The position numbers and the translations under genes were made by a program. The notes beneath the pieces are model-generated. The model was not told the DNA's origin. It was given only the letters and a program-made list of their open reading frames with translations, and searched no databases. From positions 1 through 22,810 of IMG/VR virus record IMGVR_UViG_3300037447_000017: 22,810 bases of DNA. One strand, written 5' to 3'. This document shows positions 2,686-18,776 of the stretch, piece after piece (within the stretch, counting starts at the first letter, position 1; each line of letters begins with the position of its first letter). The DNA comes from a virus.

Positions 2686-2692
2686 CTAAATA
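2686..2692 (+). promoter_or_regulatory. Late-promoter-like heptamer upstream of the HNH gene
   Basis: Exact CTAAATA on the plus strand, 30 bases before the ATG of the HNH gene. It is the same heptamer found at the structural genes. Here, as at the capsid gene, it would give a short leader, which contains a GC-rich hairpin and GGGAG before the start. Confidence 0.5.
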
Positions 2693-2694
2693 CT

Positions 2695-2714
2695 TCCGGC
2701 CATACGAACGGCCG
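2695..2714. repeat. Inverted repeat upstream of the HNH gene
   Basis: CCGGCC and GGCCGG are separated by ATACGAAC, between the heptamer at 2686 and the HNH start. In RNA it would form a hairpin at or near the 5' end of the HNH transcript. As DNA it could be an operator for the neighbouring small DNA-binding protein. The sequence does not decide between these. Confidence 0.4.
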
Positions 2715-2722
2715 GGAGTGCA

Positions 2723-2986
2723 ATGACGAGCAAATACAGGCAATACCTCGAAAGCCAAGAGTGGAAGGAAGTATCGGAAATGTGCAAGGAACGTGACAAT
2801 TGGACGTGCCAAGATTGTCAGAAGCGTTACGTTCCTATGGTCGCTCATCACACCACCTATGCGTTCATCTACAGAGAACGATTTCACTTGTGGTGCCTTC
2901 GGACGTTGTGTGAGGAATGCCACCACGAGCGACATTTTCCAACACCATCGTGGGCCGAGTTAGCAGAGCGATTTCGCAAGCTCTGA
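2723..2986 (+). CDS. HNH endonuclease
   Basis: An 87-residue protein with the classic small phage HNH layout: C-Q-D-C near residue 33-36, the A-H-H metal and catalytic pair near 46-48 followed by T-T-Y, then C-E-E-C-H-H near 68-73. Such HNH proteins often stimulate terminase cleavage during packaging in HK97-type phages, although others are homing nucleases. The start ATG follows GGGAG by four bases. Here it is about 16 kb from terminase and next to the replication genes, so the packaging role is inference. A late-promoter-like heptamer 30 bases upstream fits late expression. Confidence 0.85.
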   Translation: MTSKYRQYLESQEWKEVSEMCKERDNWTCQDCQKRYVPMVAHHTTYAFIYRERFHLWCLRTLCEECHHERHFPTPSWAELAERFRKL

Positions 2987-3004
2987 ACTTTGGGATCGAA
3001 AGAT

Positions 3005-3033
3005 TTGACCAGATTTTTCAAGTCGGTTAAGAT
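3005..3033 (+). promoter_or_regulatory. Sigma70-like promoter
   Basis: TTGACC (3005-3010), 17 bases, then TAAGAT (3028-3033) on the plus strand, about 100 bases upstream of the small gene at 3134. A 7-bp stem (GCGGACC at 3077-3083 with GGTCCGC at 3097-3103) lies in the resulting leader. Confidence 0.5.
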
Positions 3034-3133
3034 GCGTTCATCCAGGTAGAATCAAGTCTGGTTGGCTCAAGGGCGTGCGGACCAGAGACGTTATCCGGTC
3101 CGCCGCTCGTCACTTCGACTGAAAGGATTCAAC

Positions 3134-3412
3134 ATGTCTAATACAGAACAGACGCTTGAAGAGCGTATTGCCGCTTACGTTCTCACTCTTAGAGACGACA
3201 TCTATGAGGATAGCGTATTCTCCTACACCATTATCAGCGACAAGTGGTGCCGCATTTCATCCAAATCCGAGAAATACAAGACAAACACTGTGAGTTGTTT
3301 TGTCGCCCTAAAGGACTACGAAACCAAGCAGCTTGGCGAGGTGAAGGCCGGGAACATCCACAAGTCCGCTGGCTGGACACGACCAGCAAGGCGAGTGATC
3401 GGACAGGTGTGA
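3134..3412 (+). CDS. Small phage protein of unknown function
   Basis: A 92-residue protein. I chose the ATG at 3134 over an upstream in-frame start at 3062 because AAAGGA lies six bases before it, the 24 upstream residues are arginine-rich and look non-coding, and a promoter lies at 3005-3033. The second half (hydrophobic 'CFVALKDY', then N-I-H-K-S-A-G-W-T-R-P-A-R) resembles a recurring family of short phage proteins that end in a Gly/Lys-rich W-x-x-P-A-(K/R) motif. No function is known to me. It converges on the glycosyltransferase gene, with one base between the two stops. Confidence 0.65.
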   Translation: MSNTEQTLEERIAAYVLTLRDDIYEDSVFSYTIISDKWCRISSKSEKYKTNTVSCFVALKDYETKQLGEVKAGNIHKSAGWTRPARRVIGQV

Positions 3413-3413
3413 T

Positions 3414-5156
3414 TCAGAACGCAATGGCCGCTTGGTACATCGCACTCTGCTTGTAAGGTAACCCCGACTCCTTCAGAGCCCTTGCCACGCCAGGACAATC
3501 CTCCCAGCAATAATCATCGAGGATCACTTGGCCGTCAGGGACCATATGTGTCCGAAGATGTTCCAGAGCGTCCTTGGTCGATTGGTATGTGTCCATGTCA
3601 ACCACGGCGAGCTTATACTTCGCATCCTTCAAGGCCGTATCGGGGAACTTCCCGACGTGGTACACGGCCGCCGGATTGTTGACGTAAGCCTTCACCTCAT
3701 CCAAGCCGCAACTGAACTCTCCTTGCACGTGCCACCCAGGATAGATGTCATCGGTCGGAATCCCGCTGAACGTGTCATATATGTCCAGCCGAACGCCAGG
3801 GGCATAGTGGCTAATGAGCTTGGCCACGCCACCCTTATAAGTTCCGAGTTCTGCTATGGCCCCGTCGAGGTGCGCCGTGGCAAGAACGGCATCCCGGATG
3901 CGTGCCAATCGATCCACGCTCACGAGCGTCTTATCGTGAGTCAGGCCGCCGAGGACAACGGCGTCCACTTCGGCTAAGACACGCTCGGGTGTGATGGCTT
4001 GAAGCGAAGGACAGTGCGGCCGACAAGACCGCTCCGAATAGGCGGCCCCCGACCAGTAACACCCCGAACAAGGCAATGGGCCGTCAATCCACTTGGCCGA
4101 CTTATAACATCCGAAGACTTTCTCTCCGCTCGTTTGGCCACAGAGGACCACGACCGGTTTGCCCAGCGTCCCGGCAAGATGAGCGAGGCCGCTGTCGCAA
4201 CCGATCACACAAGCCGAGTTCATCATAATGCCGGCAACTTTCTCCGCTGGTGCGCCGATGACTTTCTCCGACTTCAGCCGTTCAGTGCGGAACTCTTCTG
4301 AATGAAGGACCACACACCGATAACCCTTCGCCTTCAGCAAGTCTTCCAAGGCCATCCAATGTGGCACGCTCCACTCACGGTCTGAGTAAGCAGAGAACGG
4401 ACAAAGGACCACATACCCCGCATACTCCTTGCCGGCATCCCGGACACGTTCGGGCTCCCGCAACGTGGGCATGGCCGGGCCACCCTCCACTCTGGCATTC
4501 CGCAAATAGCGGTCGATCCGGGACACTTCACTTCGACTTCGGATCTCAAGGCCGTAATCATGGTTCAGTTGGAGTTCTGGCCCGCCGATTCGTCTGTTGC
4601 CGTTCAGGTCGCAGTCGTGAACCGTAATCTCGTCGGGCTCCCGGAAAAGAGCGGCGAATGGGAGCCCCTTGTCGCCAACCCGGTAGACGATCTCGACATC
4701 GGGCCGTTCTCGTCGCAAGGCCGCCACCACGAGCAAGCCCTGAACGGCATCGCCGAGGCCGCCTGCGCCCATGTTGAGGACAACCCGCTCCCGCTGTTGG
4801 CGGTCGGGACAAGTCGAGCAACAGGCAATGGCGGTTCCGTCTTCGTTCTTGACCTGTCGAAGTTGTGTGCATTGACCATGCACGGCGCACGAGTGGATCG
4901 GCACCGGGAAGGAGCCACCACACGAGCGACAGGTACGAACTTCACCGGTCTTGTCGCCCCGATGAATGCACGAGATTACCGGCAGGGCGGCCCGCCGTGG
5001 CCGTGTTGGATGGTTGGGATCTGGCCTCGCATCTTCCCGCTTACCACCCCAGGCTTCTCTGTGGTCAGGCGAGTATTCGTACAACCGACATAAGCGACAG
5101 GTCGAGGCGGTCTTATTTGGTTCAGGATGTTTTTTGGCGCACGCTCTTTCAGCCAT
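3414..5156 (-). CDS. Glycosyltransferase (GT9-like) fused to SAM methyltransferase, with N-terminal zinc region
   Basis: A 580-residue three-part enzyme. Residues 1-120 are rich in Cys and His (C20/C23, C63, C76/C79, C90-x2-H-x2-C96, C112/C113/C116), suggesting one or two zinc-binding modules. Residues about 125-400 resemble heptosyltransferase family 9 (GT-B fold): a Gly-rich G-A-G-G-L-G-D start near 130-136 and the donor-side G-C-D-S-G-L-A-H-L at 319-327. Residues about 415-580 resemble TylF/Methyltransf_24 O-methyltransferases: A-E-L-G-T-Y-K-G-G at 435-443, V-V-D-M-D-T-Y at 518-524 and D-D-Y near 547. The start ATG shares a base with the TAA stop of the adhesin-like gene, so the two are coupled. 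It would add and methylate a sugar on a virion or host-surface target; the target is unknown. Confidence 0.8.
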   Translation of the reverse strand: MAERACAKKHPEPNKTASTCRLCRLYEYSPDHREAWGGKREDARPDPNHPTRPRRAALPVISCIHRGDKTGEVRTCRSCGGSFPVPIHSCAVHGQCTQLRQVKNEDGTAIACCSTCPDRQQRERVVLNMGAGGLGDAVQGLLVVAALRRERPDVEIVYRVGDKGLPFAALFREPDEITVHDCDLNGNRRIGGPELQLNHDYGLEIRSRSEVSRIDRYLRNARVEGGPAMPTLREPERVRDAGKEYAGYVVLCPFSAYSDREWSVPHWMALEDLLKAKGYRCVVLHSEEFRTERLKSEKVIGAPAEKVAGIMMNSACVIGCDSGLAHLAGTLGKPVVVLCGQTSGEKVFGCYKSAKWIDGPLPCSGCYWSGAAYSERSCRPHCPSLQAITPERVLAEVDAVVLGGLTHDKTLVSVDRLARIRDAVLATAHLDGAIAELGTYKGGVAKLISHYAPGVRLDIYDTFSGIPTDDIYPGWHVQGEFSCGLDEVKAYVNNPAAVYHVGKFPDTALKDAKYKLAVVDMDTYQSTKDALEHLRTHMVPDGQVILDDYCWEDCPGVARALKESGLPYKQSAMYQAAIAF

Positions 5157-6547
5157 TAGCCCTCGGTCACGGTCAAAATCAAATCCACTTCTGGTGACGA
5201 GAACTCGTGTGTGACCACGAGGCCATCATCCGTCTTAGATGAGTTTCCAGCCGTCAAAGCGAGGCCGGTTATGTCCAAGCTCTTCACGGCCATGTCATCG
5301 TTCAGTTCCACTGAAACCGTCTGCGAACCAACTTGAAGTGAACCGGCAAGTCCAGCCCCGAACAAAATGGACTGTCCGTCAAACATGGTCGAGCCACGTG
5401 TGACCGTGATGGTTGCCGTGCGCCCGAGTGACAGGAAGTGCATCCCACCGGGACAGCCTCCTTCAGTAATCGTGGCCGTGAAGAGCTTGTTCCGGCAAGG
5501 ATGGTCGGGGATGCCACCACCGGATGGCAGTTGATCCCATCGACCGTTGAACACCATCATGAACGGATTGCACTGGAACGAGACGATGTAAGGGAAAACA
5601 TTGAAGCCCGTTGGTTGAGGGCATATCTGTGGCGGACAGCCGGGACCATAACCGAACCCTAAAATACCGATGTAGTTGTAACCCCAGCCAGGAGCCTCGC
5701 CACCGGGAACGACATAACAAGCGAAGTGCCATTGGTATGGACAACAGCAAGCGAATGACCAATCGGAAATCCAACCGCCCGGATTCGATCCAACGAGGGT
5801 GGTCTGGTAACCGTCGAAGCAAGGACAGTCAGGAGCCGAGATTGTAAGACACAGATCCCCGATAGGTCGAAGGTCGCAACAGTAAGAACCGGAGCCGCTC
5901 GGGGGTGGGAGCCCGGTTTCACAACATGAGTTGACCTCCCAAACATTTAGGCCGTTATAAGTCTGTTGATTCTTCCGAGCGATGAACCGAACGCCAGCGT
6001 GTAAGGCGTTCCCATTGGCATGTTGTACGGCGACACTTTCAGCCAACCCCCACGTGTCAGGCAAGCCGGTCTGTATCAGTCGAACACCGGAGTAGTACCC
6101 GCCAGAAATCGGCGAGTTCGACGTGACGAGAACGAAAGCCGTCTCTGAACCGGGAAAGGAACTGAACCAGTAGGTGTCACCGAGGGCGATGATTTCCACC
6201 ACACTGTTGATGGGTGCCGAATAACCGTTCACAGAGAAAAGGTCGGTGCCGGTCCTGCCAGCGTCCTTGTCACGGTGCGACCCGTCCGGCATCAGTTCGA
6301 CTTCAACCCAATCGTGACGTGGCCCGGCGAGTCCTGCGCCGGAGCCAGAACCGCCCACTGTGGAGACAGCCGTTATGCGGCCATAGAATCCGAACGGGAC
6401 GTAGGAGTATGTGACGCCAGCGTCGGTGTCAGACATGCCCAAAGGAGACTTAATCGACAGCTTGCCCTGAGCGGATATGGTGTCCGTCAGTGTGTTGAGG
6501 TCCGAAGCCGACAGCCTTTGCCCGGCTGAATAGTCCTTGATTGGCAC
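5156..6547 (-). CDS. Adhesin/tail-fibre-like protein, paralogue 2
   Basis: A 463-residue protein, GTG start. Its first roughly 190 residues match the next upstream protein (6565-7599) in order and spacing: shared G-Q-R-L-S-A-S-D-L-N near residue 9, H-D-W-V-E-V-E-L-M near 79, D-G-S-H-R-D-K-D, and a Y-W-F-S-S-x-P-G motif. The remainder is divergent, Cys-rich (many CC pairs and C-P-C-F-D-G) and beta-like, ending in a domain with repeated V/T-rich strands. Position at the distal end of the tail module and the constant-N/variable-C design suggest a host-recognition or tip protein; this is inferred. The GTG start is fixed by a CTACATA element exactly four bases upstream; there is no Shine-Dalgarno. 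Confidence 0.6.
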   Translation of the reverse strand: MPIKDYSAGQRLSASDLNTLTDTISAQGKLSIKSPLGMSDTDAGVTYSYVPFGFYGRITAVSTVGGSGSGAGLAGPRHDWVEVELMPDGSHRDKDAGRTGTDLFSVNGYSAPINSVVEIIALGDTYWFSSFPGSETAFVLVTSNSPISGGYYSGVRLIQTGLPDTWGLAESVAVQHANGNALHAGVRFIARKNQQTYNGLNVWEVNSCCETGLPPPSGSGSYCCDLRPIGDLCLTISAPDCPCFDGYQTTLVGSNPGGWISDWSFACCCPYQWHFACYVVPGGEAPGWGYNYIGILGFGYGPGCPPQICPQPTGFNVFPYIVSFQCNPFMMVFNGRWDQLPSGGGIPDHPCRNKLFTATITEGGCPGGMHFLSLGRTATITVTRGSTMFDGQSILFGAGLAGSLQVGSQTVSVELNDDMAVKSLDITGLALTAGNSSKTDDGLVVTHEFSSPEVDLILTVTEG

Positions 6548-6551
6548 GCAT

Positions 6552-6558
6552 TATGTAG
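6552..6558 (-). promoter_or_regulatory. CTACATA element, 4 bases before the start at 6547
   Basis: Exact heptamer in the 17-base gap between the two adhesin-like genes. With a T4-late-type position it would place the transcript start at the GTG, giving a leaderless mRNA. Confidence 0.55.
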
Positions 6559-6564
6559 CCGGGA

Positions 6565-7599
6565 TCAAGCTGTAATCGTCGCCGTGAACGTCACGCCTGG
6601 GCAACAATCAGAGCCCGTGGTGGCGTCGAACTGAATCACATAGATGAACGGGTCACACGAGGCCGACGTGATTGAGCTACCATTGCTGTTCAAACAAGCC
6701 CCGCCGCCACTCGAAAAGAAGCTCACCGTGAAAAAGCCCCCGGAACAAGTCACATCACAATACATCGTGTGGCCGCCGACAGACTTGCTCCCACGCCAGA
6801 AGGGATCTCCACCAAGAGCAAGGTAATTGACCGTCCATGTTTGACCGTCGAAGTCCGGACAGGAGCCGGACGTGATTGTGACCGTGACGTGAATGGTCGT
6901 CGGGATTGGTTGCGGACAGCAGTCCGTCTGGACTGTCGGGCCACTGTCACCGGAGCCAGATCCGGAGCCCGAACCGCCACAACAGAATTCCGTGGCCCAC
7001 TGGTCCAGCCCGCCGAACTGGTCACGGTTGCGCCGGGAGAGATAGTTCTTGCCGGCAGTCAGGTTCCTGCCATTGGCTTCGTACAGCCAGGCGTTCTCCG
7101 CAAAACCCCAGGCCGATGGCACACCGTTCTCAATGCGCCGGATCGCCGGGTAACGCCCCGAGCTTGGCCCGCCGGTCACAGTCAGATATGCCGTTTCGTC
7201 GCCGGGCCAGGACGAGAACCAATAGGTTTCTCCGGCCGCAAACAGCTTGACCACAGAGTTCACGGCCGCCGGATCGCCGGTCACAGAATAAAGGTTCGAT
7301 CCATGTCGGCCCTGGTCCTTGTCCCGATGCGAACCATCGGCCATCAACTCAACTTCGACCCAATCGTGAACCACATAAGTCAAGGCACCGGAGCCGGAGC
7401 CCGAACCAGTCGAAGTGATGGCCGTGATTCGGACAAAAAAGGTGAAGTCGGTCAGGGCCAGCGTGGTGCCGGCACCGGTCGTGGTCGTGTAGAACGGTGG
7501 CTTGGTCGAGAGTTTGCCCTGGCGAGTGGCCTCGCCGGTCAGGTCGTTTAGGTCACTGGCGGAAAGACGTTGGCCCTTGCTGTACTGTTTGATCGGCAT
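6565..7599 (-). CDS. Adhesin/tail-fibre-like protein, paralogue 1
   Basis: A 344-residue protein beginning M-P-I-K-Q-Y-S-K-G-Q-R-L-S-A-S-D-L-N. The N-terminal half is homologous to the following gene product, so the pair arose by tandem duplication. A Gly-Ser repeat linker (residues about 207-216) separates the conserved half from a Cys-containing C-terminal part with D-C-C-P and S-C-P-D-F-D-G motifs and Gly/Ser-rich strands. The gene follows the distal tail protein and is in the usual place for tail-tip or receptor-binding proteins. The ATG at 7599 has no Shine-Dalgarno but has CTAAATA four bases upstream. No enzyme domain is recognised. Confidence 0.6.
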   Translation of the reverse strand: MPIKQYSKGQRLSASDLNDLTGEATRQGKLSTKPPFYTTTTGAGTTLALTDFTFFVRITAITSTGSGSGSGALTYVVHDWVEVELMADGSHRDKDQGRHGSNLYSVTGDPAAVNSVVKLFAAGETYWFSSWPGDETAYLTVTGGPSSGRYPAIRRIENGVPSAWGFAENAWLYEANGRNLTAGKNYLSRRNRDQFGGLDQWATEFCCGGSGSGSGSGDSGPTVQTDCCPQPIPTTIHVTVTITSGSCPDFDGQTWTVNYLALGGDPFWRGSKSVGGHTMYCDVTCSGGFFTVSFFSSGGGACLNSNGSSITSASCDPFIYVIQFDATTGSDCCPGVTFTATITA

Positions 7600-7603
7600 C
7601 AGC

Positions 7604-7610
7604 TATTTAG
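7604..7610 (-). promoter_or_regulatory. CTAAATA element, 4 bases before the start at 7599
   Basis: Exact heptamer between the distal tail gene stop (TAG at 7617-7615) and the ATG. The intergenic gap is only 15 bases, so the element cannot be part of either coding sequence. Confidence 0.55.
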
Positions 7611-7614
7611 CCGA

Positions 7615-8550
7615 CTACCACGACACTGTGAACAACTGGCTGAAGTCCGAGTATTCGTAGATCCTCTGACCAGTTGTCAGGCCAGCATTCGTTCCGGCCG
7701 TCACGAGGTCATATCGACCATAAGCTGAATCAAAGATGTAGTTGTGACCGGCCTGTTCTGTGGTCGAAGATATGGTGACAGGGCCGTTGTCACGAATGAT
7801 GAACTTGTATGCGATGTCCCAGTACAGCCACTTTGAAGTAGCACTGGACAACTTCGGCGTGATTGGTTTTGGCTCCACGCCAGCGAACAACACGGTTCCC
7901 TTGGCCCGGCCGTCGAAGGTTGCATTGTTCACAGTTCCGATCAAATCACGTACAGTGCTTTCGTTCGGAATCTTGTATGGTGACGAGTTGTTCGCTGGGA
8001 CTTGCTTCCAGGTATATGTGCATTCAAGAAACGGCTGAATCATGCCGGGTTGCGATTGCAAGATTGCATCACGTTGGCAGAACTTGAAATAGCTCTGAAG
8101 CGTGAGCATGTCAGCCGCTTCGCTGTATTCCTTCTGAACGTATCGGTCTAGTTCAGTTGTGACTTGTTCGTCCGATTTGACATCCCAGTTCACGGGCCGA
8201 TACGTGACCGTGATGAGGGCTCGTTTCCAACTCGACTTGCGACCGGAGACAGAGGGAGCCCCTTCCGGGTCAATGGAAGCCTCAAGAGCGTAAAAGTTGT
8301 ATAAGTCAGGGTGTTGGTCAGGGAGGACACGATACAGCTTGCCGCTCTGTGTGTAAGCGTAGCCTAACAGGTCATCGAGGAAGGCCGCCCGTTGATTCCA
8401 GTCAACAATGTATTTCTTGACGCTTGACGAACTTGACTCGGAAAAGGTTTCCTTCGCCGTGTCCCGATACATTTCCTTGTAAACGTATGGTCCCCACGTT
8501 GCGTCTGTCGCCGTTGTGCTGTCTGCGAATGTCCATTGGTCAAGTCCCAT
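7615..8550 (-). CDS. Putative distal tail / tail-tip structural protein
   Basis: A 311-residue protein directly after the tape measure gene, where siphoviruses encode the distal tail protein. The sequence is mixed alpha/beta with many aromatic residues and no catalytic motif that I recognise. It has no signal peptide or membrane segment. Position is the main argument, and a baseplate-hub or minor tail role is equally possible. The start ATG at 8550 lacks a Shine-Dalgarno and has CTACATA four bases upstream. Confidence 0.5.
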   Translation of the reverse strand: MGLDQWTFADSTTATDATWGPYVYKEMYRDTAKETFSESSSSSVKKYIVDWNQRAAFLDDLLGYAYTQSGKLYRVLPDQHPDLYNFYALEASIDPEGAPSVSGRKSSWKRALITVTYRPVNWDVKSDEQVTTELDRYVQKEYSEAADMLTLQSYFKFCQRDAILQSQPGMIQPFLECTYTWKQVPANNSSPYKIPNESTVRDLIGTVNNATFDGRAKGTVLFAGVEPKPITPKLSSATSKWLYWDIAYKFIIRDNGPVTISSTTEQAGHNYIFDSAYGRYDLVTAGTNAGLTTGQRIYEYSDFSQLFTVSW

Positions 8551-8554
8551 GCCG

Positions 8555-8561
8555 TATGTAG
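8555..8561 (-). promoter_or_regulatory. CTACATA element, 4 bases before the start at 8550
   Basis: Exact heptamer within the 15-base gap after the tape measure stop. Its flanks (CCCTACATACGGC) nearly duplicate those of the capsid-leader copy (GCCTACATACGGC) 7.4 kb away. Confidence 0.55.
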
Positions 8562-8565
8562 GGCG

Positions 8566-10128: not shown

Positions 10129-10132
10129 CACC

Positions 10133-10139
10133 TATTTAG
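10133..10139 (-). promoter_or_regulatory. CTAAATA element, 4 bases before the start at 10128
   Basis: Exact heptamer, embedded in a near-palindrome (CACCTA..TAGGTG). It follows the stop of the frameshift extension (10153-10151) by about 11 bases. Confidence 0.55.
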
Positions 10140-10150
10140 GTGACGCTCAA

Positions 10151-10363
10151 TTAAGTCCGAAAATATGCTTCCGCTTGCCTGACGTAGAGGTCTAACTTTT
10201 CACGGTCCGTGAGCCCCCGATATGCCATAGCTTTGTCGATTGCTCTGCTCACGTCGCTCTTGTCCTCTCCGGCCGAAATATACCGGTGAAGTTCAGGCAG
10301 CGTGAGTGAGCCCACTACATCGGGAGTGAATCGGTATTCGCTGGCAAGGAATCGGTAGATGGC
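10151..10363 (-). CDS. Tail assembly chaperone, -1 frameshift extension (GT-like)
   Basis: An open reading frame with no start of its own, read only by a -1 shift from the preceding gene. Six G (10368-10363 on the minus strand) form the slip site, with codons GGG GGG in the zero frame. After the shift 70 residues follow (A-I-Y-R-F-L-A-S-E-Y..., T-P-D-V-V-G-S-L-T-L-P-E-L-H-R-Y, D-R-E-K-L-D-L-Y-V-R-Q-A-E-A-Y-F), ending at TAA 10153-10151, just before the tape measure. The layout (short product plus longer fusion of about 239 residues) matches the lambda gpG/gpGT system, whose ratio controls tail assembly. It was found by reading the frame by hand. Confidence 0.8.
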   Translation of the reverse strand, partial: AIYRFLASEYRFTPDVVGSLTLPELHRYISAGEDKSDVSRAIDKAMAYRGLTDREKLDLYVRQAEAYFRT

Positions 10364-11276: not shown

Positions 11277-11771
11277 TCACAGCAGCAATTTTCCGAAGAC
11301 AGAGCCAACCTCCCAAAGTGCTGAAGTCTGCTCGGGTGTGACCTGACCATATACGAGGACAACTGAACCAAGTGGGGCTTGTCCTCTCGTGACTTCTGGA
11401 CCGATGGGCGAAATAAACTTGACACGGTAGCCTGGGTAAACGTGAACGTCGGCCGGATTCGCCCGATAGTATTTCGTGGTGAGTGAGTTCGTGTGAACGA
11501 TGAATACCGCCAGCTTCGCTTCATGGGCCTTGGCCATGAAGTCGCCGGGATTCTTGAACGGTGGATTGCAAAAGACCACTTCGTCTGACCAATCTTGCGT
11601 CAAGGCGTCCGTTTCTGGTGTCCAGTAGCGGGGGAGCAAATGGTTGTCGTCGTTGGCGCAGGCATCGACCGTGAATGAGAAGATGGCGTTCAAGGAGTCG
11701 AAGAACTGGGGAGGCGTTTGCCAACACTGTCGGCGGTCGTCTGTAAAGTTGCGCCCGAACTTGTTTACCAT
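11277..11771 (-). CDS. Phage Dam-like N6-adenine DNA methyltransferase
   Basis: A 164-residue protein that matches the phage Dam family (PF05869-type). It has W-Q-T-P-P-Q-F-F-D-S-L near 19-29, then F-T-V-D-A-C-A-N, and the catalytic N-P-P-F motif near 70-73. It would methylate adenine in phage DNA, either for anti-restriction or to mark it. The start ATG overlaps the upstream stop (TGATG at 11773-11769), so it is translationally coupled to the structural gene before it; a TTG one codon earlier is less likely. A modification enzyme inside the tail gene cluster is unusual in position. Confidence 0.85.
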   Translation of the reverse strand: MVNKFGRNFTDDRRQCWQTPPQFFDSLNAIFSFTVDACANDDNHLLPRYWTPETDALTQDWSDEVVFCNPPFKNPGDFMAKAHEAKLAVFIVHTNSLTTKYYRANPADVHVYPGYRVKFISPIGPEVTRGQAPLGSVVLVYGQVTPEQTSALWEVGSVFGKLLL

Positions 11772-12214
11772 CAAATCCCGAGAATCAAAATGTCATACGT
11801 CAGGCTGGCCGATGGTGTCATCAGCAAGTTCTTGTGTGTGCTGTCCACAGTCCGGGCCGTGTCCAGATACAAGCACTTGCCAGGGCCGATGGTGAACAGG
11901 TCCGAGCTACACACCGGGTTGGTAGAACCACCCACTGTGAGCGTGGCCGATGATGACTTGTTGTAAATTTGAATGACTTTCACTGTCGCCATGTTCACGG
12001 TCGAGCCATATCCGGCCTGGGTGAGCGACGTACAGTCAAGGGTTTCCGGCGAAGCAATGGTTCGCTCGTCGGCGAAAACCTTGCTGATGTCTGTGTTTGC
12101 CAGGGCCGACGAATAGGCGATCTTGGGACCACCGGTATAAGTTCCGAGTGGATTGCTGCCCTGGTGTGTGACTCGTGTGCTTACGTCGATTTGTGCGGTT
12201 GCAGTGATTGCCAT
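11771..12214 (-). CDS. Beta-rich virion structural protein
   Basis: A 147-residue protein with alternating strands (Q-I-Y-N-K-S-S-S-A-T-L-T-V-G-G, C-L-Y-L-D-T-A). It looks like a small decoration or tail-spike-base beta-sandwich. Position between the tail terminator-like gene and the tail tube, together with a late element, fits a virion protein. I do not recognise a specific family. The start ATG at 12214 has no ribosome site; CTAAATA ends five bases upstream. The stop is shared with the start of the methyltransferase. Confidence 0.5.
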   Translation of the reverse strand: MAITATAQIDVSTRVTHQGSNPLGTYTGGPKIAYSSALANTDISKVFADERTIASPETLDCTSLTQAGYGSTVNMATVKVIQIYNKSSSATLTVGGSTNPVCSSDLFTIGPGKCLYLDTARTVDSTHKNLLMTPSASLTYDILILGI

Positions 12215-12219
12215 AGGCG

Positions 12220-12226
12220 TATTTAG
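12220..12226 (-). promoter_or_regulatory. CTAAATA element, 5 bases before the start at 12214
   Basis: Exact heptamer overlapping the end of the upstream gene (stop at 12225-12223 lies within it). It thus doubles as a stop codon, as at 16641. Confidence 0.55.
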
Positions 12227-12612
12227 GCAACCGCCACGTCATTCCTTGAATAGTTGAGAAGTGCTGCCCAGTGGCTTTGATAGTCGGGCTCCATAACGAG
12301 CCCCCATCGTTCGATGGTGGTGGTCATGCCACCCGGCGAAATGGTAAACAGGTTCAGAGCGGATAAGACGCCAAGCATCAGCTTGCCGCCCTCATCACGG
12401 TCTATGCCGAATACGTGAACTTCATACTTGCCGTCCCAGAAGTTGATGCCGTTCGTCTGATAGGCCGGAACTTCCTCCCATCCTGAAATGCTCACATAGG
12501 GCGGTTTCAGCTTGTCGCCATAACCCACAACCACGTGGTCAAGATTGATAGGGAAAACGGAGTTTGTTGCAATCTGCTTGCGGATCTGGTCAATGATGTC
12601 TGACGGGTTCAT
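12223..12612 (-). CDS. Tail terminator / tail completion-like protein
   Basis: A 129-residue protein. The N-terminal helix (P-S-D-I-I-D-Q-I-R-K-Q-I) and a central strand region with W-D-G-K-Y-E-V-H-V-F-G-I-D-R-D near 60-74 match the alpha/beta fold of small tail-terminator proteins of siphoviruses (lambda gpU or DUF3168-like). Position after the gp10-like protein fits. No Shine-Dalgarno is visible; TTTTATA with spacing four precedes the ATG and directly follows a terminator hairpin (12628-12654), which suggests an independent start. Confidence 0.6.
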   Translation of the reverse strand: MNPSDIIDQIRKQIATNSVFPINLDHVVVGYGDKLKPPYVSISGWEEVPAYQTNGINFWDGKYEVHVFGIDRDEGGKLMLGVLSALNLFTISPGGMTTTIERWGLVMEPDYQSHWAALLNYSRNDVAVA

Positions 12613-12616
12613 GCCT

Positions 12617-12623
12617 TATAAAA
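12617..12623 (-). promoter_or_regulatory. TTTTATA, possible variant late element
   Basis: Located four bases before the ATG at 12612. Only the ATA end and the spacing match the other elements, and it differs at two positions. Its place directly after a terminator hairpin is the main reason to list it. Confidence 0.3.
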
Positions 12624-12654
12624 GCAACAACGCCCCGGTTTTAGCGGGGCGTTG
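12624..12654 (-). terminator. Rho-independent terminator-like hairpin
   Basis: A perfect 10-bp stem (CAACGCCCCG at 12628-12637 with its complement at 12645-12654) around a 7-base loop. On the minus strand TTGCTTTT follows. It lies after the head-completion genes and immediately before the 12612 start. Confidence 0.65.
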
Positions 12655-12714
12655 CGCAGGTAACAGACAGAGGACGAAGAGCCACAACATCCTTCCAGGC
12701 TGATAATCTATCTA

Positions 12715-13131
12715 TCATCCACCAAGAAGAATCTTGCCCACGTGGTCTTTGTCTCGTTCCCAGGCAATCGTCAGCCAGGGGCGTGGTTGCATCCATTTGG
12801 TTCCGAATTGCAAGAACATCGGATACCCGGCGAGCGATGAGCCCACTTCAAGTGTCAATGCCTTCTTGTCCACCTTGTATGTGAGCGACCGCTGAAACTG
12901 GCCGGTCAACTTGTGTGGGAACTGACCAGGAGCGGATGGATTCAAGCCTTTGTAATAGACAGCCTTCTTGCCGGCATATCTCTTGTACGGTTGGGGATTG
13001 TTGGCGTACTGTCGCCAGGAGGACACCAAGTAGAGCCCGGCCTTGTCCAGATTCTTTTCCATGTCCGTGCGAAGCACGTTCAAGAAAGACTGGCCGTCCC
13101 ACGATACTCGAATAGACAACGGTTCAGACAT
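12715..13131 (-). CDS. HK97 gp10-like tail-completion protein
   Basis: A 138-residue protein. The C-terminal hallmark is F-L-Q-F-G-T-K-W-M-Q-P-R-P-W-L near residues 107-121, the family's 'E/FGT...PRPFL' motif, preceded by a P-H-K-L-T-G-Q-F-Q-R-S-L patch. The ATG at 13131 overlaps the preceding gene's stop (13126-13124) and follows AAGAAG; an in-frame start further upstream at 13182 lies deep inside the neighbour and is rejected. It acts at the head-tail junction. Confidence 0.8.
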   Translation of the reverse strand: MSEPLSIRVSWDGQSFLNVLRTDMEKNLDKAGLYLVSSWRQYANNPQPYKRYAGKKAVYYKGLNPSAPGQFPHKLTGQFQRSLTYKVDKKALTLEVGSSLAGYPMFLQFGTKWMQPRPWLTIAWERDKDHVGKILLGG

Positions 13132-13480
13132 CTTCTTTGTTGAGCCTCTTCTTGGCTTCCTCCGGCCATTCCAAACAGTCAAGCTGGCAATAGTAGCTGA
13201 TGAACAAGTTCTGTTGCGCCCCGTTCACGTGGAACTGATGCTCCTTGCCGGTCGAGTCTGTGAACACGGCCACGTCCTCCCGTTGGTAGTCTTGGACTTG
13301 CGTGGTGTAAATCGTGTGCGAGGCTTCGATTCCACGTTGCATGTAGAACAGTTGTTCGGCCGCCGACAGTGGTTGAACGAAGCTCGGGACGTTCTGAAAC
13401 GTCAGAGTGTACCCGGTGATTTGACCCGCTGAAAACGTCGGCCGCCACACGTCGATAGTATGTCTCATCAATCCTAACAT
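13124..13480 (-). CDS. Head closure / head-tail adaptor protein
   Basis: A 118-residue protein. R-H-T-I-D-V-W-R-P-T near the start and an I-Y-T-T-Q-V-Q-D-Y-x-x-E-D-V-A-V-F strand resemble SPP1 gp16/HK97 gp7-type head-closure ('stopper') proteins. Two ATGs (13480 and 13468) are possible; GGAGG lies three bases before the first and AGGA three bases before the second, both unusually close, so the start is not settled. It overlaps the gp10-like gene by 8 bases and follows the connector gene by 9. Confidence 0.7.
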   Translation of the reverse strand: MLGLMRHTIDVWRPTFSAGQITGYTLTFQNVPSFVQPLSAAEQLFYMQRGIEASHTIYTTQVQDYQREDVAVFTDSTGKEHQFHVNGAQQNLFISYYCQLDCLEWPEEAKKRLNKEDV

Positions 13481-13489
13481 CGTCCTCCA

Positions 13490-14335
13490 TTAAGCGTGCC
13501 AACGTGGGATCGTCGTGAGCTTGTAATAGTTCAAGGCTTGCTTGGCACTCACAGACAAGCTGTCGATACTCGTGGTTGCCAAGCGGGAGTAGCTGTAGCG
13601 GTCGAGTGTTTCCGATGCCAAGCCGGGCGTCATGCGCCGGGAGGCGTACACCAGTTGCACGAGTTCGGCCGTGGCCTGTTGGATCTCTTCCGGCACCGTG
13701 GCGTACCCGCCCGTGTACTGAACCCGACAAGTCTGATACCCATCCCAAAAAGCACCGGGAGCATATATCTCCCCGAGTTCGTAATTGACCCGTTCAAAAG
13801 GCAAGTACCACCAGTACACAAGCAGACTTGCGTTCAGGTTCTTGGCCCCGAATGCTCCTTGCGGCGTCAAGTCCGCCGTTGCCCATGTAGCGAACTGGTC
13901 AGGCACCGTGGCGGACCATCCATTGCCGATGGTGTTGATGTTCGCCCCGAGTGCCGCAAACGTGGCGTAACTGGCGAATGACTTGGTGACAGTTGTGGGC
14001 GTTCCCGAGCTTACCGAATAGAGGACCACGGCCGTACTGGTGACTGTGACCGTTGCCACGGAGACGGCCGAGGAAGTGTTCGTTATCCAGATTGCCGGCA
14101 AAGGCGAGATCCGAACCGCCTTCACTTGGATGATGGGCGGGTTCGCCACCAGGATGTTCGGGTCATCGGTGCCATAAATCAGTTCGTCAAAGTCCTGACT
14201 CGTGAAGCGACGATTGCAATAGTCTTCGACTGTTGCGCTACAGGCCGTGATGAGGCTCGACAGAACGGAGTCATCGGCCGACGGTGTGTTCGGGATTTGT
14301 TGCTTGGCACGAGCAAGTGTGATGAGGTCAGACAC
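13490..14335 (-). CDS. Head-tail connector (gp6-like) with a large inserted domain
   Basis: A 281-residue protein. The first helices (D-L-I-T-L-A-R-A-K-Q-Q-I ... L-I-T-A-C-S-A-T-V-E-D-Y-C-N-R-R-F) are those of HK97 gp6-like connectors, and the helical end (Q-Q-A-T-A-E-L-V-Q-L-V-Y) completes the fold. A Thr/Val/Ser-rich insertion of about 120 residues, with G-N-G-W-S-A-T-V near its end, separates them, making the protein more than twice the usual length. I take the GTG at 14335 as the start, because CTACATA lies exactly four bases upstream and the sequence then begins V-S-D-L-I-T-L. A TTG at 14359 is possible but would put the element inside the coding sequence. Confidence 0.75.
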   Translation of the reverse strand: MSDLITLARAKQQIPNTPSADDSVLSSLITACSATVEDYCNRRFTSQDFDELIYGTDDPNILVANPPIIQVKAVRISPLPAIWITNTSSAVSVATVTVTSTAVVLYSVSSGTPTTVTKSFASYATFAALGANINTIGNGWSATVPDQFATWATADLTPQGAFGAKNLNASLLVYWWYLPFERVNYELGEIYAPGAFWDGYQTCRVQYTGGYATVPEEIQQATAELVQLVYASRRMTPGLASETLDRYSYSRLATTSIDSLSVSAKQALNYYKLTTIPRWHA

Positions 14336-14339
14336 ACCG

Positions 14340-14346
14340 TATGTAG
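14340..14346 (-). promoter_or_regulatory. CTACATA element, 4 bases before the start at 14335
   Basis: Exact heptamer. It lies about 20 bases after the terminator hairpin of the capsid gene. Confidence 0.55.
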
Positions 14347-14358
14347 CCGATGAGCGCA

Positions 14359-14387
14359 AAAGAAAAGGCCGCCCGTTTGGGCGGCCT
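14359..14387 (-). terminator. Rho-independent terminator after the capsid gene
   Basis: A 9-bp perfect stem (arms 14366-14374 and 14379-14387, AGGCCGCCC) with a 4-base loop, followed on the minus strand by TTTTCTTTT. It lies about 20 bases past the stop of the major capsid gene and would isolate the highly expressed capsid message. Confidence 0.8.
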
Positions 14388-14407
14388 CTTGCTTCGTTGG
14401 CGTCGGA

Positions 14408-15802
14408 TTAGGCGGCGACAACAACGATGTTGCTACACGTGGTCGAGTCGGCCCTGGTGTAAGGCGAGAGGACCAAGTTCTTGGTGGCGATGTACTGCAA
14501 GAACCGGAGCGAATCCACGGCCTTGTCGAAGTACAAGGCGTTCGTCTGAGCCGAGTCCAATGGCAGGTATCCACAAGCGATGCTCGGGAAGTGGACGAGG
14601 ATGATGTCACCCACAGAACCAAGAGCGGCGGCTTGTTCACAGACGTGAACCGGGCGACCGAACAAGGTGCCGGCAGGAGCGTAGGACGCATTGCCAGTAC
14701 CACCCGAATAGTTCGGTGGGGTTGGCAGGAAGATTGGATACGTTCCGGAGCCGTTCGGGAATGCCAGCTTCATCAAATCGCCGTAGGCGGTTGGGTTGAT
14801 GATCCAACAGCTTTCACTCTGGAAATCTGTGTACAACGAGGTCCACATTGCCACGATGTCAGGGAAGGTAATGTGGCCGGACGTACCACGAGTGATCGTC
14901 ACCTTGGCCGCATTTCCGATCAGGTTCACACCAGACGACGTGCCGTTCAGGATGCTATCATTGATTTTGAATCGCAGCTTGGCGGGTACGTGCTGACGAA
15001 TGTAGGCTTCCAAGTTGTAATGCTGGAACCGGAGCATTTCGTCTGTGATGTTCACCAATACACCCAACTTGACCAGCGACAACTGGACAGTGTTGGTGAG
15101 TGCGGTCGTGTCTGTGATGGCCGTGTTTTCGTTGGTAACGGAAGCAGTGATACCAGTGTTACCGGCCGTGATGTTGAATTCAGGTACATTGATTACCTGA
15201 TTCTGCATTTCGTATTTGCTCATCATTTCCAAAAACGCTGGGCCACCTGAGAAGCTAAGTGCGTAGATCTCATCCGCCCATTGTTGGGGGATCAACGACC
15301 CACCTGCGGTTGATGTCCCGACATTCATTGCGCCCTTTGTGCGAAGGCGCATGTAGTCATCCATCTTCTTGCTTGCTGACAGGTCGTTGAACTTGGCAGC
15401 AATGGCACAATCCAAGAACGACTTGAAGGTCGGGAACCCGCCCTTACGTTCGTTCTGTTCAACGGTCCATGCGGACTTGTTCACCTTCACGGACGGAAGG
15501 CTGTAGGACTTGTTTGCCTTGACGATCTTCTCCACGGCCGATGTCGTGGCTTTCTCCACGGCAGCTTCCGCCCTTTTGCCCAGGTTCAGAACTTCGTCGG
15601 CCGACGGGCTTTCATCGCCTTCGTCTCCGGCTTCGTCGGCCTCGGGCTCGTCACCTTCGCCACCGTTTACTTCGTCCTCTGAAGCCTCATGAGCGAGGCC
15701 GGCACTGATGAGGGCTTGTCCGGCCTCATCTTCCACGTGGAGAACGGAACCTTCCTCAAGTTCGCCAAGTGGCTTGTCCAATACGACTGCAATAACTGCC
15801 AT
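14408..15802 (-). CDS. Major capsid protein, HK97 fold
   Basis: A 464-residue protein. An acidic N-terminal part (about 1-70, with a short M-A-V-I-A-V-V-L-D-K-P-L-G-E-L domain and runs of E/D) and a helical delta-like scaffold region (70-150) precede the mature shell domain. The latter starts near G-A-M-N-V-G-T-S-T-A-G-G-S-L-I-P-Q and includes the N-arm, E-loop and P-domain patterns (V-N-I-T-D-E-M-L-R, F-P-D-I-V-A-M-W). Scaffold removal by the adjacent protease is expected. The ATG at 15802 has no ribosome site immediately upstream; transcription would start at an element 125 bases before, giving a leader. Confidence 0.9.
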   Translation of the reverse strand: MAVIAVVLDKPLGELEEGSVLHVEDEAGQALISAGLAHEASEDEVNGGEGDEPEADEAGDEGDESPSADEVLNLGKRAEAAVEKATTSAVEKIVKANKSYSLPSVKVNKSAWTVEQNERKGGFPTFKSFLDCAIAAKFNDLSASKKMDDYMRLRTKGAMNVGTSTAGGSLIPQQWADEIYALSFSGGPAFLEMMSKYEMQNQVINVPEFNITAGNTGITASVTNENTAITDTTALTNTVQLSLVKLGVLVNITDEMLRFQHYNLEAYIRQHVPAKLRFKINDSILNGTSSGVNLIGNAAKVTITRGTSGHITFPDIVAMWTSLYTDFQSESCWIINPTAYGDLMKLAFPNGSGTYPIFLPTPPNYSGGTGNASYAPAGTLFGRPVHVCEQAAALGSVGDIILVHFPSIACGYLPLDSAQTNALYFDKAVDSLRFLQYIATKNLVLSPYTRADSTTCSNIVVVAA

Positions 15803-15926
15803 CTAAATCACACTGCATTGTGTGAGCCCTCAATATCTCCGACCTGGGATGCGCCCGATCTCCGGCACCGTTGCCTAATGGGTCGCTCCTTTCTTCGGTC
15901 TGATAAGCCGAGTTCACTAGCTGCCG
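15803..15926 (-). promoter_or_regulatory. Capsid mRNA leader with a strong, apparently unused ribosome site
   Basis: Between the CTACATA element and the capsid ATG lies a leader of about 118 bases. It contains AAGGAG (15891-15886), six bases before an ATT (15879-15877) that opens a 23-codon frame. That frame closes at TGA 8 bases before the capsid ATG. ATT starts are rare in bacteria, so this is either a leader peptide, a ribosome standby site, or chance. Confidence 0.4.
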
Positions 15927-15933
15927 TATGTAG
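15927..15933 (-). promoter_or_regulatory. CTACATA element at the capsid leader
   Basis: Exact heptamer, same flanks (CTACATACGGC) as the copy at 8555-8561, but not followed by a start codon at 4-5 bases. The position before a leader argues that the heptamer is a transcription signal rather than a translation signal. Confidence 0.6.
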
Positions 15934-15946
15934 GCGGGAGGTGGCT

Positions 15947-15971
15947 CAAAATCGCAAGTGTTGCGATTTTG
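15947..15971 (-). terminator. Terminator-like hairpin after the protease gene
   Basis: A perfect 11-bp stem (CAAAATCGCAA / TTGCGATTTTG) with a 3-base loop begins 4 bases past the protease stop (15978-15976). The stem ends in TTTT, making it terminator-like although without a separate long T-run. It lies 13 bases upstream of the capsid late element. Confidence 0.5.
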
Positions 15972-15975
15972 GTTC

Positions 15976-16635
15976 TTAGATTCGCCCGAGGTGCCGGTCT
16001 GCTACCCGGCGAGCAATGGCTTCATGGTCGATGGTCACAGAAGGCAGAGTGGCCCGCTTCTTGGCCCGTGGCTTGGCCTTCTTTGGCATGAGTTTCTTGG
16101 TCACGGCTTGCAAAAGGGTTTCCGGGTTCGATGGGACCGCCACCATACTGACCTCTAACAACATGGCCTTTTCAACCACACGTTCAACGCCAGCGAATTT
16201 GGCCCGCTCGTCTTGAGTGGGCTCACGCCATTCAAGGGGGATGAACCCGCACGAAGCCCCGGCAAGAATCGGCGGGTCACACGAAATAAGGGCGAACACA
16301 CGGTCAGGTTCGAAGGACTCGGAAGGGTGAAGTGAGTCGGGCCGTTTGGGATACTTCGTTTTCATCACAAGGGAGTTGCCTTGTGTCTTAATCCACAGAG
16401 CTTTGCCCACGGGGTTGTTCAGTTCATGGTTGAACAAGACCACGGGATTCAGTTGGTACTGGTCAAGGATGAATGACTCGGGATAGATGAGTTCATTGTC
16501 CCGGTCCATCACGGCCGTGGTGATTTTGTGAACGGCCGTTCGACTCTCCTGGTCAATCTCTGTCGTAACCGGCAATGTGCTTCGGCGAAGTGGCTTGCCA
16601 TCCTTGGCATACTTGGCAATGAGGTCTTTGTTCAT
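15976..16635 (-). CDS. HK97-type prohead protease (S78-like)
   Basis: A 219-residue serine protease that removes the capsid scaffold domain. The catalytic His is in F-N-H-E-L-N-N-P-V-G-K-A (near residue 70-80). The Ser motif is G-A-S-C-G-F-I-P-L-E-W (near 130-140), and the family's A-M-L-L-E-V-S-M-V-A-V-P-S-N-P end is clear. The Lys/Arg-rich C-terminal tail (P-K-K-A-K-P-R-A-K-K-R) is typical of the autocleaved end. I chose the ATG at 16635, because CTAAATA lies five bases upstream; the 14 extra residues from 16677 overlap the portal gene. Confidence 0.9.
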   Translation of the reverse strand: MNKDLIAKYAKDGKPLRRSTLPVTTEIDQESRTAVHKITTAVMDRDNELIYPESFILDQYQLNPVVLFNHELNNPVGKALWIKTQGNSLVMKTKYPKRPDSLHPSESFEPDRVFALISCDPPILAGASCGFIPLEWREPTQDERAKFAGVERVVEKAMLLEVSMVAVPSNPETLLQAVTKKLMPKKAKPRAKKRATLPSVTIDHEAIARRVADRHLGRI

Positions 16636-16640
16636 GCTCC

Positions 16641-16647
16641 TATTTAG
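16641..16647 (-). promoter_or_regulatory. CTAAATA element, 5 bases before the start at 16635
   Basis: Exact heptamer, overlapping the portal stop TAA (16646-16644). GGAG also lies in the 5-base spacer, but too close to the ATG to be an ordinary ribosome site. Confidence 0.5.
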
Positions 16648-18749
16648 TCCGTCACATATTGCAAAGTGCAAAAACAATGCGGGTGGAACGGTGGCGCATC
16701 CACCGTGCCATATGGCCCCGGCTCGGTGTGTGCGAACGGTTCATCCAGGTCACGAGTCTGACCATTCAGTCCTTTGCAGTGGTCACACACGTTCGGCGAT
16801 CCTGCCAACCATTTCTTTTTGATGTTCAATCCCGTCTCCTTGGCCGCAATGATTTCGCCGGTGTGACGAGCCCGTGAACTTTCCGTCCATGCGATGAGGT
16901 TGGCACGCTCGGACCGCATGTTCTCAAAGACATCCATGATTCTGCCGGTCAGTTGCTTGTTCGCTTCACCTTCCGACATCCCTTGCCGGAGTTGTTCACG
17001 TGTCTGTTCAATGGCATCATCCACGAGCTTGCTCGTGGTGTCCATCGTGCTTTGGGCGAACGCCAGAACCGCTTGGTTCATGGCTTCGTTCAGTTTGGGG
17101 ATCGGGAGGACGGTATCCACGCCCAGGCCGTTCAGGAGCCGTTGACCCGAGCGTTCGTAGACGATTCGCAGAATCGGAGACACACGTTCGACAATCTCGC
17201 CGGTCCAATCGTCCAGGGCCACGAATGCCTTCACGTCGATGTCCGGGATGGACTTGTGATTCGGCAGTTCGGTCTGTGTCAGGTAGAACTGTTCCATCAT
17301 GGTGAAGATGGCCCGTAGCTCTTGCGCCAGAAGAACCTCTTCTTTGTTCCCGACGGACTTGTACGACCGCTTCCACTTCTTGGTGGCGGTCAGGGCCTTG
17401 GCTTCTTGCGAGTCCTGTTTCGGTTGTGGCTCCCCTTGCTCGTGGTCCCGTGGTGTGTTCAGAAGTCCGGCGAAGGGATCGCCCTGGGCCTTGTTCACGG
17501 GCTCGTCGCCCCACGGCTTCGGCCCTAACCCGAGCTTGGCCCGCCGCTCATTGGGCGTGATGACGTTGTTCTGAAGGTCTCCGGCATCTTCCAAATACTC
17601 TTGCTGTCGTTCCCGAAGTTCCAACTCCTGGTCCTTCTCCACCACGTCTTCGACCATGAGGAAAAGCCGGTCGTCATATTCGGCGACAAGGTGACGGTTC
17701 AGGACATCCACGATGGCGTTGACTCGTGGTTCCAAGCAGAACTCTTGGTAGGTTCGCTTGGCGGTCGTGGCACTCGCAAGATTGCTGTCTTGCGGGTCGA
17801 GAATCGGGCGAGGCATATGGAATGCCCGATATACAGCCGTGGTGATTTCATCATGAAGTTGCAAGGCCGACAAATCCCGAGGTGGTCGAGACAACGGCGA
17901 AGCGTTGACCGGTTCGGGATACGTCATGATGCCGTTCGACTCTCCTTGCCGGAACAGCTTCGTCATTTGCTTGCTGATGCGTTCCGAGTTCGCCGGGCTC
18001 CATTTCTCTCCCTCTAGTGGCGTGATGAGCAAAGACGGGAAAGCAGTGTTCTTGAGAATGGCGTGCCACGTGTCGGTTTCTTCCCGCAACAGAAGTAGCT
18101 GTTGCCACACACTGGCGACCGGCGACACGCCCGCCACGTTGTACGGGTCGAAGGGGTTTACGCTCTTGAACACGAGCATGTCAGACGGTGGGATCGCCGG
18201 CGCATCCTTGGCGAAGCCGTTCTGGAAGTAGTCAATGAAGCCAGCGTCCGTGTATTCGACTCTGATGTTCTGCGTCGGCAGGAGGACCACGGCCTCGACC
18301 CGGCCAGCATGTCGAACCTTGTACCAATAGGCCGTGCCACACAAGTCAAGAATGGTCTGTGTGATCTGAATCAACTGGCTCCATGACTGAACATCGTTCG
18401 GCCGCTCCATCAGTTCAAGGAACGGGTGGTCAAGGATTTCGTGGGGATCGCCCTTGCGGTTCAGGTGCTTGAACGACTTGGTGAGCCGGGTTCGCTTGCT
18501 CTTGACGGCCGGAGTGGTGCCTGTCGGAATGACGGCGCAGAGCGAAACGTCCCTGGTCAGGTGCTTCGCCACATTGTCGGCAATGTGGGTGACGCAAGCG
18601 TAAACCGTGTCCTCCATCGCCAACAGCAAGTCCTGGGTGGTCGGGGCTTCTCTGTTCCACTTGCTGCCGTAGGTGGAAATGGTCTGTGAGTGACTGCTTC
18701 CCATCGGCCGCCAGAGCGAGGCCAGGGCATTCTTGAGTTTCGTGAACAC
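16644..18749 (-). CDS. Portal protein fused to a Mu gpF-like head morphogenesis domain
   Basis: A 701-residue protein. Residues 1-430 are an HK97-type portal: D-T-V-Y-A-C-V-T-H-I-A-D-N-V-A near the start, H-P-F-L-E-L-M-E-R-P-N near 107-117, A-Y-W-Y-K-V near 137-142, and H-M-P-R-P-I-L-D near 313-320. Residues about 480-701 match Mu gpF-like minor head proteins: R-A-N-L-I-A-W-T-E-S-S-R-A-R, then V-C-D-H-C-K-G-L-N-G-Q and P-P-F-H-P-H-C-F-C at the end, a CxxC...HxxCxC zinc-like motif. The two are usually separate genes. The linker is Gln/Pro/Asp-rich. The GTG start at 18749 has CTACATA four bases upstream; there is no Shine-Dalgarno. Confidence 0.85.
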   Translation of the reverse strand: MFTKLKNALASLWRPMGSSHSQTISTYGSKWNREAPTTQDLLLAMEDTVYACVTHIADNVAKHLTRDVSLCAVIPTGTTPAVKSKRTRLTKSFKHLNRKGDPHEILDHPFLELMERPNDVQSWSQLIQITQTILDLCGTAYWYKVRHAGRVEAVVLLPTQNIRVEYTDAGFIDYFQNGFAKDAPAIPPSDMLVFKSVNPFDPYNVAGVSPVASVWQQLLLLREETDTWHAILKNTAFPSLLITPLEGEKWSPANSERISKQMTKLFRQGESNGIMTYPEPVNASPLSRPPRDLSALQLHDEITTAVYRAFHMPRPILDPQDSNLASATTAKRTYQEFCLEPRVNAIVDVLNRHLVAEYDDRLFLMVEDVVEKDQELELRERQQEYLEDAGDLQNNVITPNERRAKLGLGPKPWGDEPVNKAQGDPFAGLLNTPRDHEQGEPQPKQDSQEAKALTATKKWKRSYKSVGNKEEVLLAQELRAIFTMMEQFYLTQTELPNHKSIPDIDVKAFVALDDWTGEIVERVSPILRIVYERSGQRLLNGLGVDTVLPIPKLNEAMNQAVLAFAQSTMDTTSKLVDDAIEQTREQLRQGMSEGEANKQLTGRIMDVFENMRSERANLIAWTESSRARHTGEIIAAKETGLNIKKKWLAGSPNVCDHCKGLNGQTRDLDEPFAHTEPGPYGTVDAPPFHPHCFCTLQYVTD

Positions 18750-18753
18750 ACGA

Positions 18754-18760
18754 TATGTAG
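18754..18760 (-). promoter_or_regulatory. CTACATA element before the portal gene
   Basis: Exact heptamer, four bases before the GTG at 18749, in the 32-bp gap shared with the divergent terS gene. Confidence 0.6.
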
Positions 18761-18769
18761 CAGTGCCGG

Positions 18770-18776
18770 CTAGATA
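18770..18776 (+). promoter_or_regulatory. CTAGATA element before terS
   Basis: The plus-strand copy, five bases before the ATG of the terminase small subunit. Its presence on the opposite strand, facing away from the portal element, shows that the motif is tied to gene starts rather than to one strand's base composition. Confidence 0.55.

Follow-up and report, generated by a model that had tools for sequence, protein, structure and literature searches.

A late-promoter-like heptamer placed at start codons suggests leaderless transcription of structural genes in an uncultured tailed phage

In phage T4, the late promoter TATAAATA spans positions -13 to -6 (PMC1524935). The predicted late promoter of the T4-type Aeromonas phage Aeh1 is CTAAATA, beginning at -12, and the gp55 protein of this phage is unusually diverged (PMC1524935). 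Leaderless middle and late mRNAs have been described in the Thermus phage phiYS40 (PMC3594737). Further, leaderless genes with TANNNT -10 boxes are known in bacteria (PMC3160421; PMC12340547). Here we describe a heptamer, CTANATA, that stands directly ahead of structural genes in IMGVR_UViG_3300037447_000017, a fragment of an uncultured tailed phage. The complete IMG/VR record of 22,810 bases was analyzed (hereafter, the window); it encodes terminase, portal, protease, capsid, adaptor, major tail and tape measure proteins.

We consider it likely that CTANATA acts as a late promoter of the T4 type (gp55 class) and corresponds to positions -12 to -6. The start codon follows the heptamer by 4 or 5 bases; transcription would therefore begin on the first base of ATG or GTG, or no more than one base away from it, and most structural genes would be made from leaderless mRNAs. 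The promoter would therefore also decide where translation starts. The host RNA polymerase core would probably be directed to the heptamer by a phage protein of 104 amino acids that consists of sigma region 2. A T4-late-like promoter giving leaderless or near-leaderless mRNAs had been proposed in the initial annotation of this DNA. The proposal is supported by the identity of the heptamer with that of Aeh1, the gp55-like, region-2-only open reading frame (ORF), strong hairpins upstream of several heptamers, the two copies that lie far from their genes, and a genome-wide spacing peak in an independent, gp55-encoding T4-type phage. The sigma candidate, the Aeh1 precedent and the other phages with this arrangement are additions to that annotation.

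Both strands of the window contained 11 copies of CTANATA, all at the coordinates originally given, compared with 1.22 +/- 1.01 expected; none of 100 dinucleotide shuffles reached 11. The spacings were measured again. The heptamer ended 4 bases before ATG or GTG at six sites and 5 bases before at three (9/11), and the two remaining copies, ahead of the HNH and capsid genes, are exceptions with leaders, as had been noted. No copy was found inside a gene, despite the genome being 91% coding, and two shared 4 bases with the end of the preceding ORF; thus the copies were intergenic or overlapped the preceding stop, and were not spread through genes. For 11 positions placed at random, the probability of 9 or more having spacing 4-5 to any of 25 starts was 1e-25, and 5e-16 when the positions were confined to non-coding bases. 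Six of the nine starts close to a motif were the first start codon of their ORF, indicating that the choice of start was not fitted to the motif. A site matrix, which was trained on the same sites, set them clearly apart from all other positions; the lowest true site scored 14.2, followed by 12.4 and 9.8 for the next best positions.

When viral and genome collections were searched with the sigma candidate, portal, terminase, capsid and ORF311, the sole close relative obtained was L007, a 7.6-kb contig (identity to the window: portal 75%, terminase 84%, capsid 81%). Its heptamers (4, compared with 0.25 expected) all lay at orthologous starts. The arrangement was CTAAATA+5+ATG for TerS (CTAGATA, spacing 5, in the window), CTAAATA+4+GTG for portal (CTACATA, spacing 4), CTACATA+5+ATG for protease (CTAAATA, spacing 5) and CTACATA+6+GTG for adaptor (CTACATA, spacing 4). 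At the capsid gene, L007 had TTACATA followed by a leader of approximately 124 bases, where the window has CTACATA. Thus the motif was kept at all five corresponding starts, with spacings of 4, 5, 5 and 6 at the close ones. The spacer letters differed between the window and L007 (TCGT/CACC, GGAGC/CCCCC, ACGTC/CCCCC, CGGT/CCTTTT) while motif and distance were kept, suggesting that selection acts on the element and its distance rather than on the spacer letters. The absence of a -35 element had been noted earlier. This held for a strong -35, but in the window and L007 the heptamer was preceded by a weak A/T element, 17 bases ahead in 16/16 sites and 15 bases ahead in 15/16.

Two further phages, G003 (IMGVR_UViG_3300042319_001471, 177 kb) and G002 (IMGVR_UViG_3300027769_000271, 12 kb), were found when IMG/VR was scanned for two CTAAATA copies standing back to back with ATG 4-5 bases away. 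Both clearly encode gp55 (E values 6e-23 and 2e-23, respectively). When TANATA followed by an RTG codon opening at least 40 codons was counted in G003, there were 48 sites at spacing 5, compared with a mean of 3.96 per other spacing. The search pattern included the spacing; however, 48 sites across the genome are not explained by the selection of a single locus. The genes downstream included those of tail sheath, large terminase, neck, tail fibre and homing endonucleases. Further, T/A was enriched at -29 to -24, the same place as the upstream element of the window and L007. In G002, TANATA lay five bases before RTG at 5 sites. G003 and G002 thus resemble the window, with its gp55-like candidate, in that they encode gp55 and have TANATA close to RTG starts, at five bases. 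G003 differs in being a contractile-tailed phage of the T4 superfamily with a gp55 of normal length and a terminase of a different family; its spacing is almost always 5, and the first base is C, T or A. The terminase of G003 is only 31% identical to those of known phages. Recoding of TAG in G003, suspected from an in-frame TAG, was rejected, as this TAG is the end of gp55.

In G001 (IMGVR_UViG_3300035698_021806, 49.5 kb), five of six CTANATA copies in a 6.7-kb locus lay 4-5 bases before RTG. We did not detect gp55 in G001, which may use a different sigma factor or one that was not recognized. No spacing peak at 4-6 bases was found in T4, Aeh1, Moby, S-RIM2 or the Ackermannviridae phage 0507-KN2-1, nor in any of 80 distant terminase contigs examined as controls. 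The motif was shared neither by these contigs nor by MW202444, a portal-related control phage.

The core of the heptamer had been likened to the T4 late promoter. We confirmed that CTAAATA matches the late promoter predicted for Aeh1 in every base and that its TAAATA core is that of T4. As at T4-type late promoters, a TAAATA-like -10 element precedes late structural genes with no strong -35. The leader with a Shine-Dalgarno (SD) sequence that separates such promoters from their genes was absent at nine window genes, which instead have the arrangement of leaderless genes, that is, no SD and a -10 element positioned such that +1 would be the start codon. In the Aeh1/T4 register, +1 would coincide with the first base of the start codon when the spacer has 5 bases, and would lie within one base of it when the spacer has 4. 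A pyrimidine is the usual base preceding a transcription start. It was found at -1 in 11/13 predicted leaderless starts compared with 5/13 other starts (Fisher P 0.04), and in 42/49 starts of G003, which fits transcription from the purine of ATG or GTG. The same promoter may instead give near-leaderless mRNAs that start 2-4 bases upstream of the start codon, as the spacing varies between 4, 5 and 6 and the choice of start site can shift by a base or two. We regard this variant as possible but rather unlikely, because of the exact placement of +1 at spacing 5 and the pyrimidines preceding the start codon.

A leaderless promoter of the TANNNT class could also be read by the host housekeeping sigma-70 rather than by a phage sigma factor. 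A TANNNT box approximately 12 bases before the start is common for leaderless genes in several bacterial phyla (PMC3160421; PMC12340547). However, the sixth base was A, not T, in 11/11 sites (TANATA), so that the strongest feature of sigma-70 sites was missing, and the first T lay at -10 or -11 instead of -12. Further, the motif stood ahead of structural genes, not early genes, and the exact heptamer is a T4-type late promoter. We therefore judge recognition by host sigma-70 to be improbable.

The candidate for a phage sigma factor reading the heptamer is the 104-amino-acid protein. It matched Pfam Sigma70_r2 with E=0.0027 and NCBIfam sigma70-ECF with E=0.001. Genuine T4 gp55 scored only 0.087 on the Sigma70_r2 model; sub-threshold scores are therefore expected for the gp55 class. 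With a profile of seven gp55 proteins, the 104-amino-acid ORF ranked first of 322 window ORFs (E=4.7e-4; next, 0.19), and with a nine-sequence profile none of 2000 shuffles matched its score. Pairwise BLAST against T4 gp55 was not significant. The protein and gp55 have YV..EL, MKI..G and N-x-F/Y motifs in common; thus region 2 homology and a gp55-specific N-terminus, which mark the gp55 family, were both found, although weakly. The protein ends after region 2 at residue 104; region 4 is absent, as is the C-terminal sliding-clamp-binding tail (LDFLYE in T4). There was no obvious LDFLYE in the gp55 of cyanophages, G002 or G003 either. The gp33 co-activator and gp45 clamp gave no family match in the annotated part of the fragment, in which they were not the object of a dedicated test. 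The second-best NCBIfam match of the 104-amino-acid protein was a Rhodopirellula/Verrucomicrobium family, which is too weak for naming the host. The sigma gene itself starts 5 bases after CTTTATA, which perhaps belongs to the same promoter class. Together with the TTTTATA ahead of ORF129, this variant may represent a second promoter class with identical geometry, or both may be weak sites of the CTANATA class.

The positions of terminators and leaders distinguish transcription from translation. In the window, an intrinsic terminator and a hairpin lie directly upstream of the adaptor and capsid heptamers (Table 1). The same two heptamers in L007 are directly preceded by strong terminators (capsid, 4675-4700; adaptor, 6264-6288). 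New transcripts must therefore begin at the heptamers. Conservation of the capsid leader between the window and L007 started 1-4 bases from the heptamer, at the expected transcript start. This leader carried frame-changing indels between the two phages, suggesting that it is conserved as RNA or DNA. It contained no SD and had no Rfam match, and its folding was no better than that of shuffles. The initial annotation described the heptamer and the SD as complementary signals. This was true on average, as mean anti-SD energy was -1.8 kcal/mol for genes with the heptamer at 4-5 bases compared with -5.2 kcal/mol for other genes (P=0.007; the start of one control, ORF155, is uncertain), but the genes of the major tail protein and a methyltransferase had neither signal. 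The alternative offered at that time, a translation-initiation signal in the mRNA substituting for the SD, would suit the fixed distance and this complementarity, but we reject it as highly improbable. Two copies lie far from the start, at 30 and 124 bases, and a normal SD follows one of them; copies directly follow terminators; no complementarity between the heptamer and the 16S rRNA tail is evident; and conservation of the capsid leader begins where transcription is expected to start. The evidence thus supports CTANATA as a transcription signal as the best reading.

Several points weigh against a gp55-class promoter that gives leaderless mRNAs. Most spacers in the window are 4 bases long, one base short of the T4 register. 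The sigma homology is weak and below curated cut-offs, with an hhalign probability of 7.7%. The AlphaFold single-sequence model of the 104-amino-acid protein was poor (pLDDT 64) and Foldseek found no PDB match; neither was used as evidence. As the record is a fragment, another sigma factor or activator may be encoded elsewhere, and the only close relative, L007, lacks the sigma region. The 5' ends are predicted from sequence, and their exact position and leaderless translation in the host are inferred. Finally, leaderless GTG starts would require a tolerant host.

Table 1. Predicted promoter sites and neighbouring features in the window (SD, Shine-Dalgarno)
Feature	Position	Strand	Sequence	Description
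HNH gene promoter	2686..2692	+	CTAAATA	30 bases ahead of ATG 2723
HNH leader		+	CCGGCC/GGCCGG; GGGAG	After the heptamer; hairpin and SD
TerS promoter	18770..18776	+	CTAGATA	Spacing 5, ATG 18782; back to back with portal promoter
Portal promoter	18754..18760	-	CTACATA	Spacing 4, GTG 18749
Prohead protease promoter	16641..16647	-	CTAAATA	Spacing 5, ATG 16635
11-bp hairpin	15947..15971	-	CAAAATCGCAA-CAC-TTGCGATTTTG	Immediately upstream of capsid promoter
Major capsid promoter	15927..15933	-	CTACATA	124 bases ahead of ATG 15802
Capsid mRNA leader	15803..15926	-		~86% nucleotide identity to L007 about 4727-4846
Intrinsic terminator, 12-bp	14363..14390	-	GGCCGCCC-AAAC-GGGCGGCC-TTTTCTTTT	Between capsid gene and adaptor promoter
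Head-tail adaptor promoter	14340..14346	-	CTACATA	Spacing 4, GTG 14335
ORF129 variant (tentative)	12617..12623	-	TTTTATA	Spacing 4, ATG 12612; preceded by terminator 12655-12627
ORF147 promoter	12220..12226	-	CTAAATA	Spacing 5, ATG 12214
Tape measure promoter	10133..10139	-	CTAAATA	Spacing 4, ATG 10128
ORF311 (tail region) promoter	8555..8561	-	CTACATA	Spacing 4, ATG 8550
ORF344 promoter	7604..7610	-	CTAAATA	Spacing 4, ATG 7599
ORF463 promoter	6552..6558	-	CTACATA	Spacing 4, GTG 6547
Sigma gene variant (tentative)	21337..21343	-	CTTTATA	Spacing 5 from GTG; possible autoregulation
Candidate gp55-like late sigma	21017..21331	-		104 amino acids, sigma region 2 only; profile matches
Tail-region protein	6565-7599	-		GSGSGSGSG run, many cysteines
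Glycosyltransferase fusion	3414-5156	-		Glycosyltransferase family 9 domain fused to TylF-type methyltransferase
DNA adenine-methyltransferase-like genes (3)	11277-11774; 21354-22109; 22247-22810	-		Dam, N6_Mtase, MT-A70; all three in one small phage fragment

Other features of the window were observed beside the promoter sites (Table 1). The cysteine-rich tail-region protein and its neighbour ORF463 share the N-terminal plan MPIK.YS.GQRLSASDLN and look like duplicates. The glycosyltransferase fusion is encoded in the phage structural operon.

Leaderless phage mRNAs, T4-type late promoters, leaderless -10 elements of hosts and the heptamer in Aeh1 are each already known separately. Among the papers searched, none of relevance dealt with a T4-like late promoter combined with leaderless transcription. 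We lean towards the view that T4-type late transcription without leaders is a general mode that has so far gone unreported. In several unrelated phage lineages, the gp55-class promoter would have moved to a fixed distance of 4-5 bases from the start codon, where a single seven-base element sets the starts of both RNA and protein; in the window, an unusually small sigma factor of the gp55-like kind (104 amino acids, no clamp-binding tail) would operate it. T4-type late promoters and leaderless mRNAs would then be joined in one compact design, and start codons of uncultured phages could be predicted from the promoter alone. The design would also offer a clean natural system in which leaderless translation of highly abundant proteins can be tested, and it points to a minimal sigma factor of one domain that is not coupled to the clamp. 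Any phage genome can readily be screened with the spacing histogram, which already singles out the 177-kb T4-type contig, with approximately 48 such genes.

The window would resemble phiYS40, in which late phage genes are expressed from leaderless mRNAs, as predicted here for the window. Host and phage are different, and the phiYS40 source (PMC3594737) does not describe a gp55-type promoter that abuts the start codon. As in bacterial genes of the TANNNT class, a -10 element abutting the ORF would give a leaderless mRNA; however, the bacterial sites are housekeeping sigma sites ending in T, whereas the window has TANATA with a strong preceding C, at late phage genes only. T4 likewise has a -10-only promoter with a TAAATA core in the -13 to -6 register, and a sigma factor of region 2 only. 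In contrast to the window, the motif in 50 kb of T4 always keeps a distance of at least 14 bases to the start, with an SD in between. The T4 system comprises gp55, gp33 and gp45; the window protein lacks the C-terminal tail of gp55. Aeh1 has the identical heptamer ahead of late structural genes, also in back-to-back pairs, and its dependence on gp55 is inferred. However, those sites in 85 kb of Aeh1 that stand in leaders are 14-57 bases away from the start and are separated from it by an AGGAG-type SD, whereas in the window the heptamer stands 4-5 bases from the start codon with no SD.

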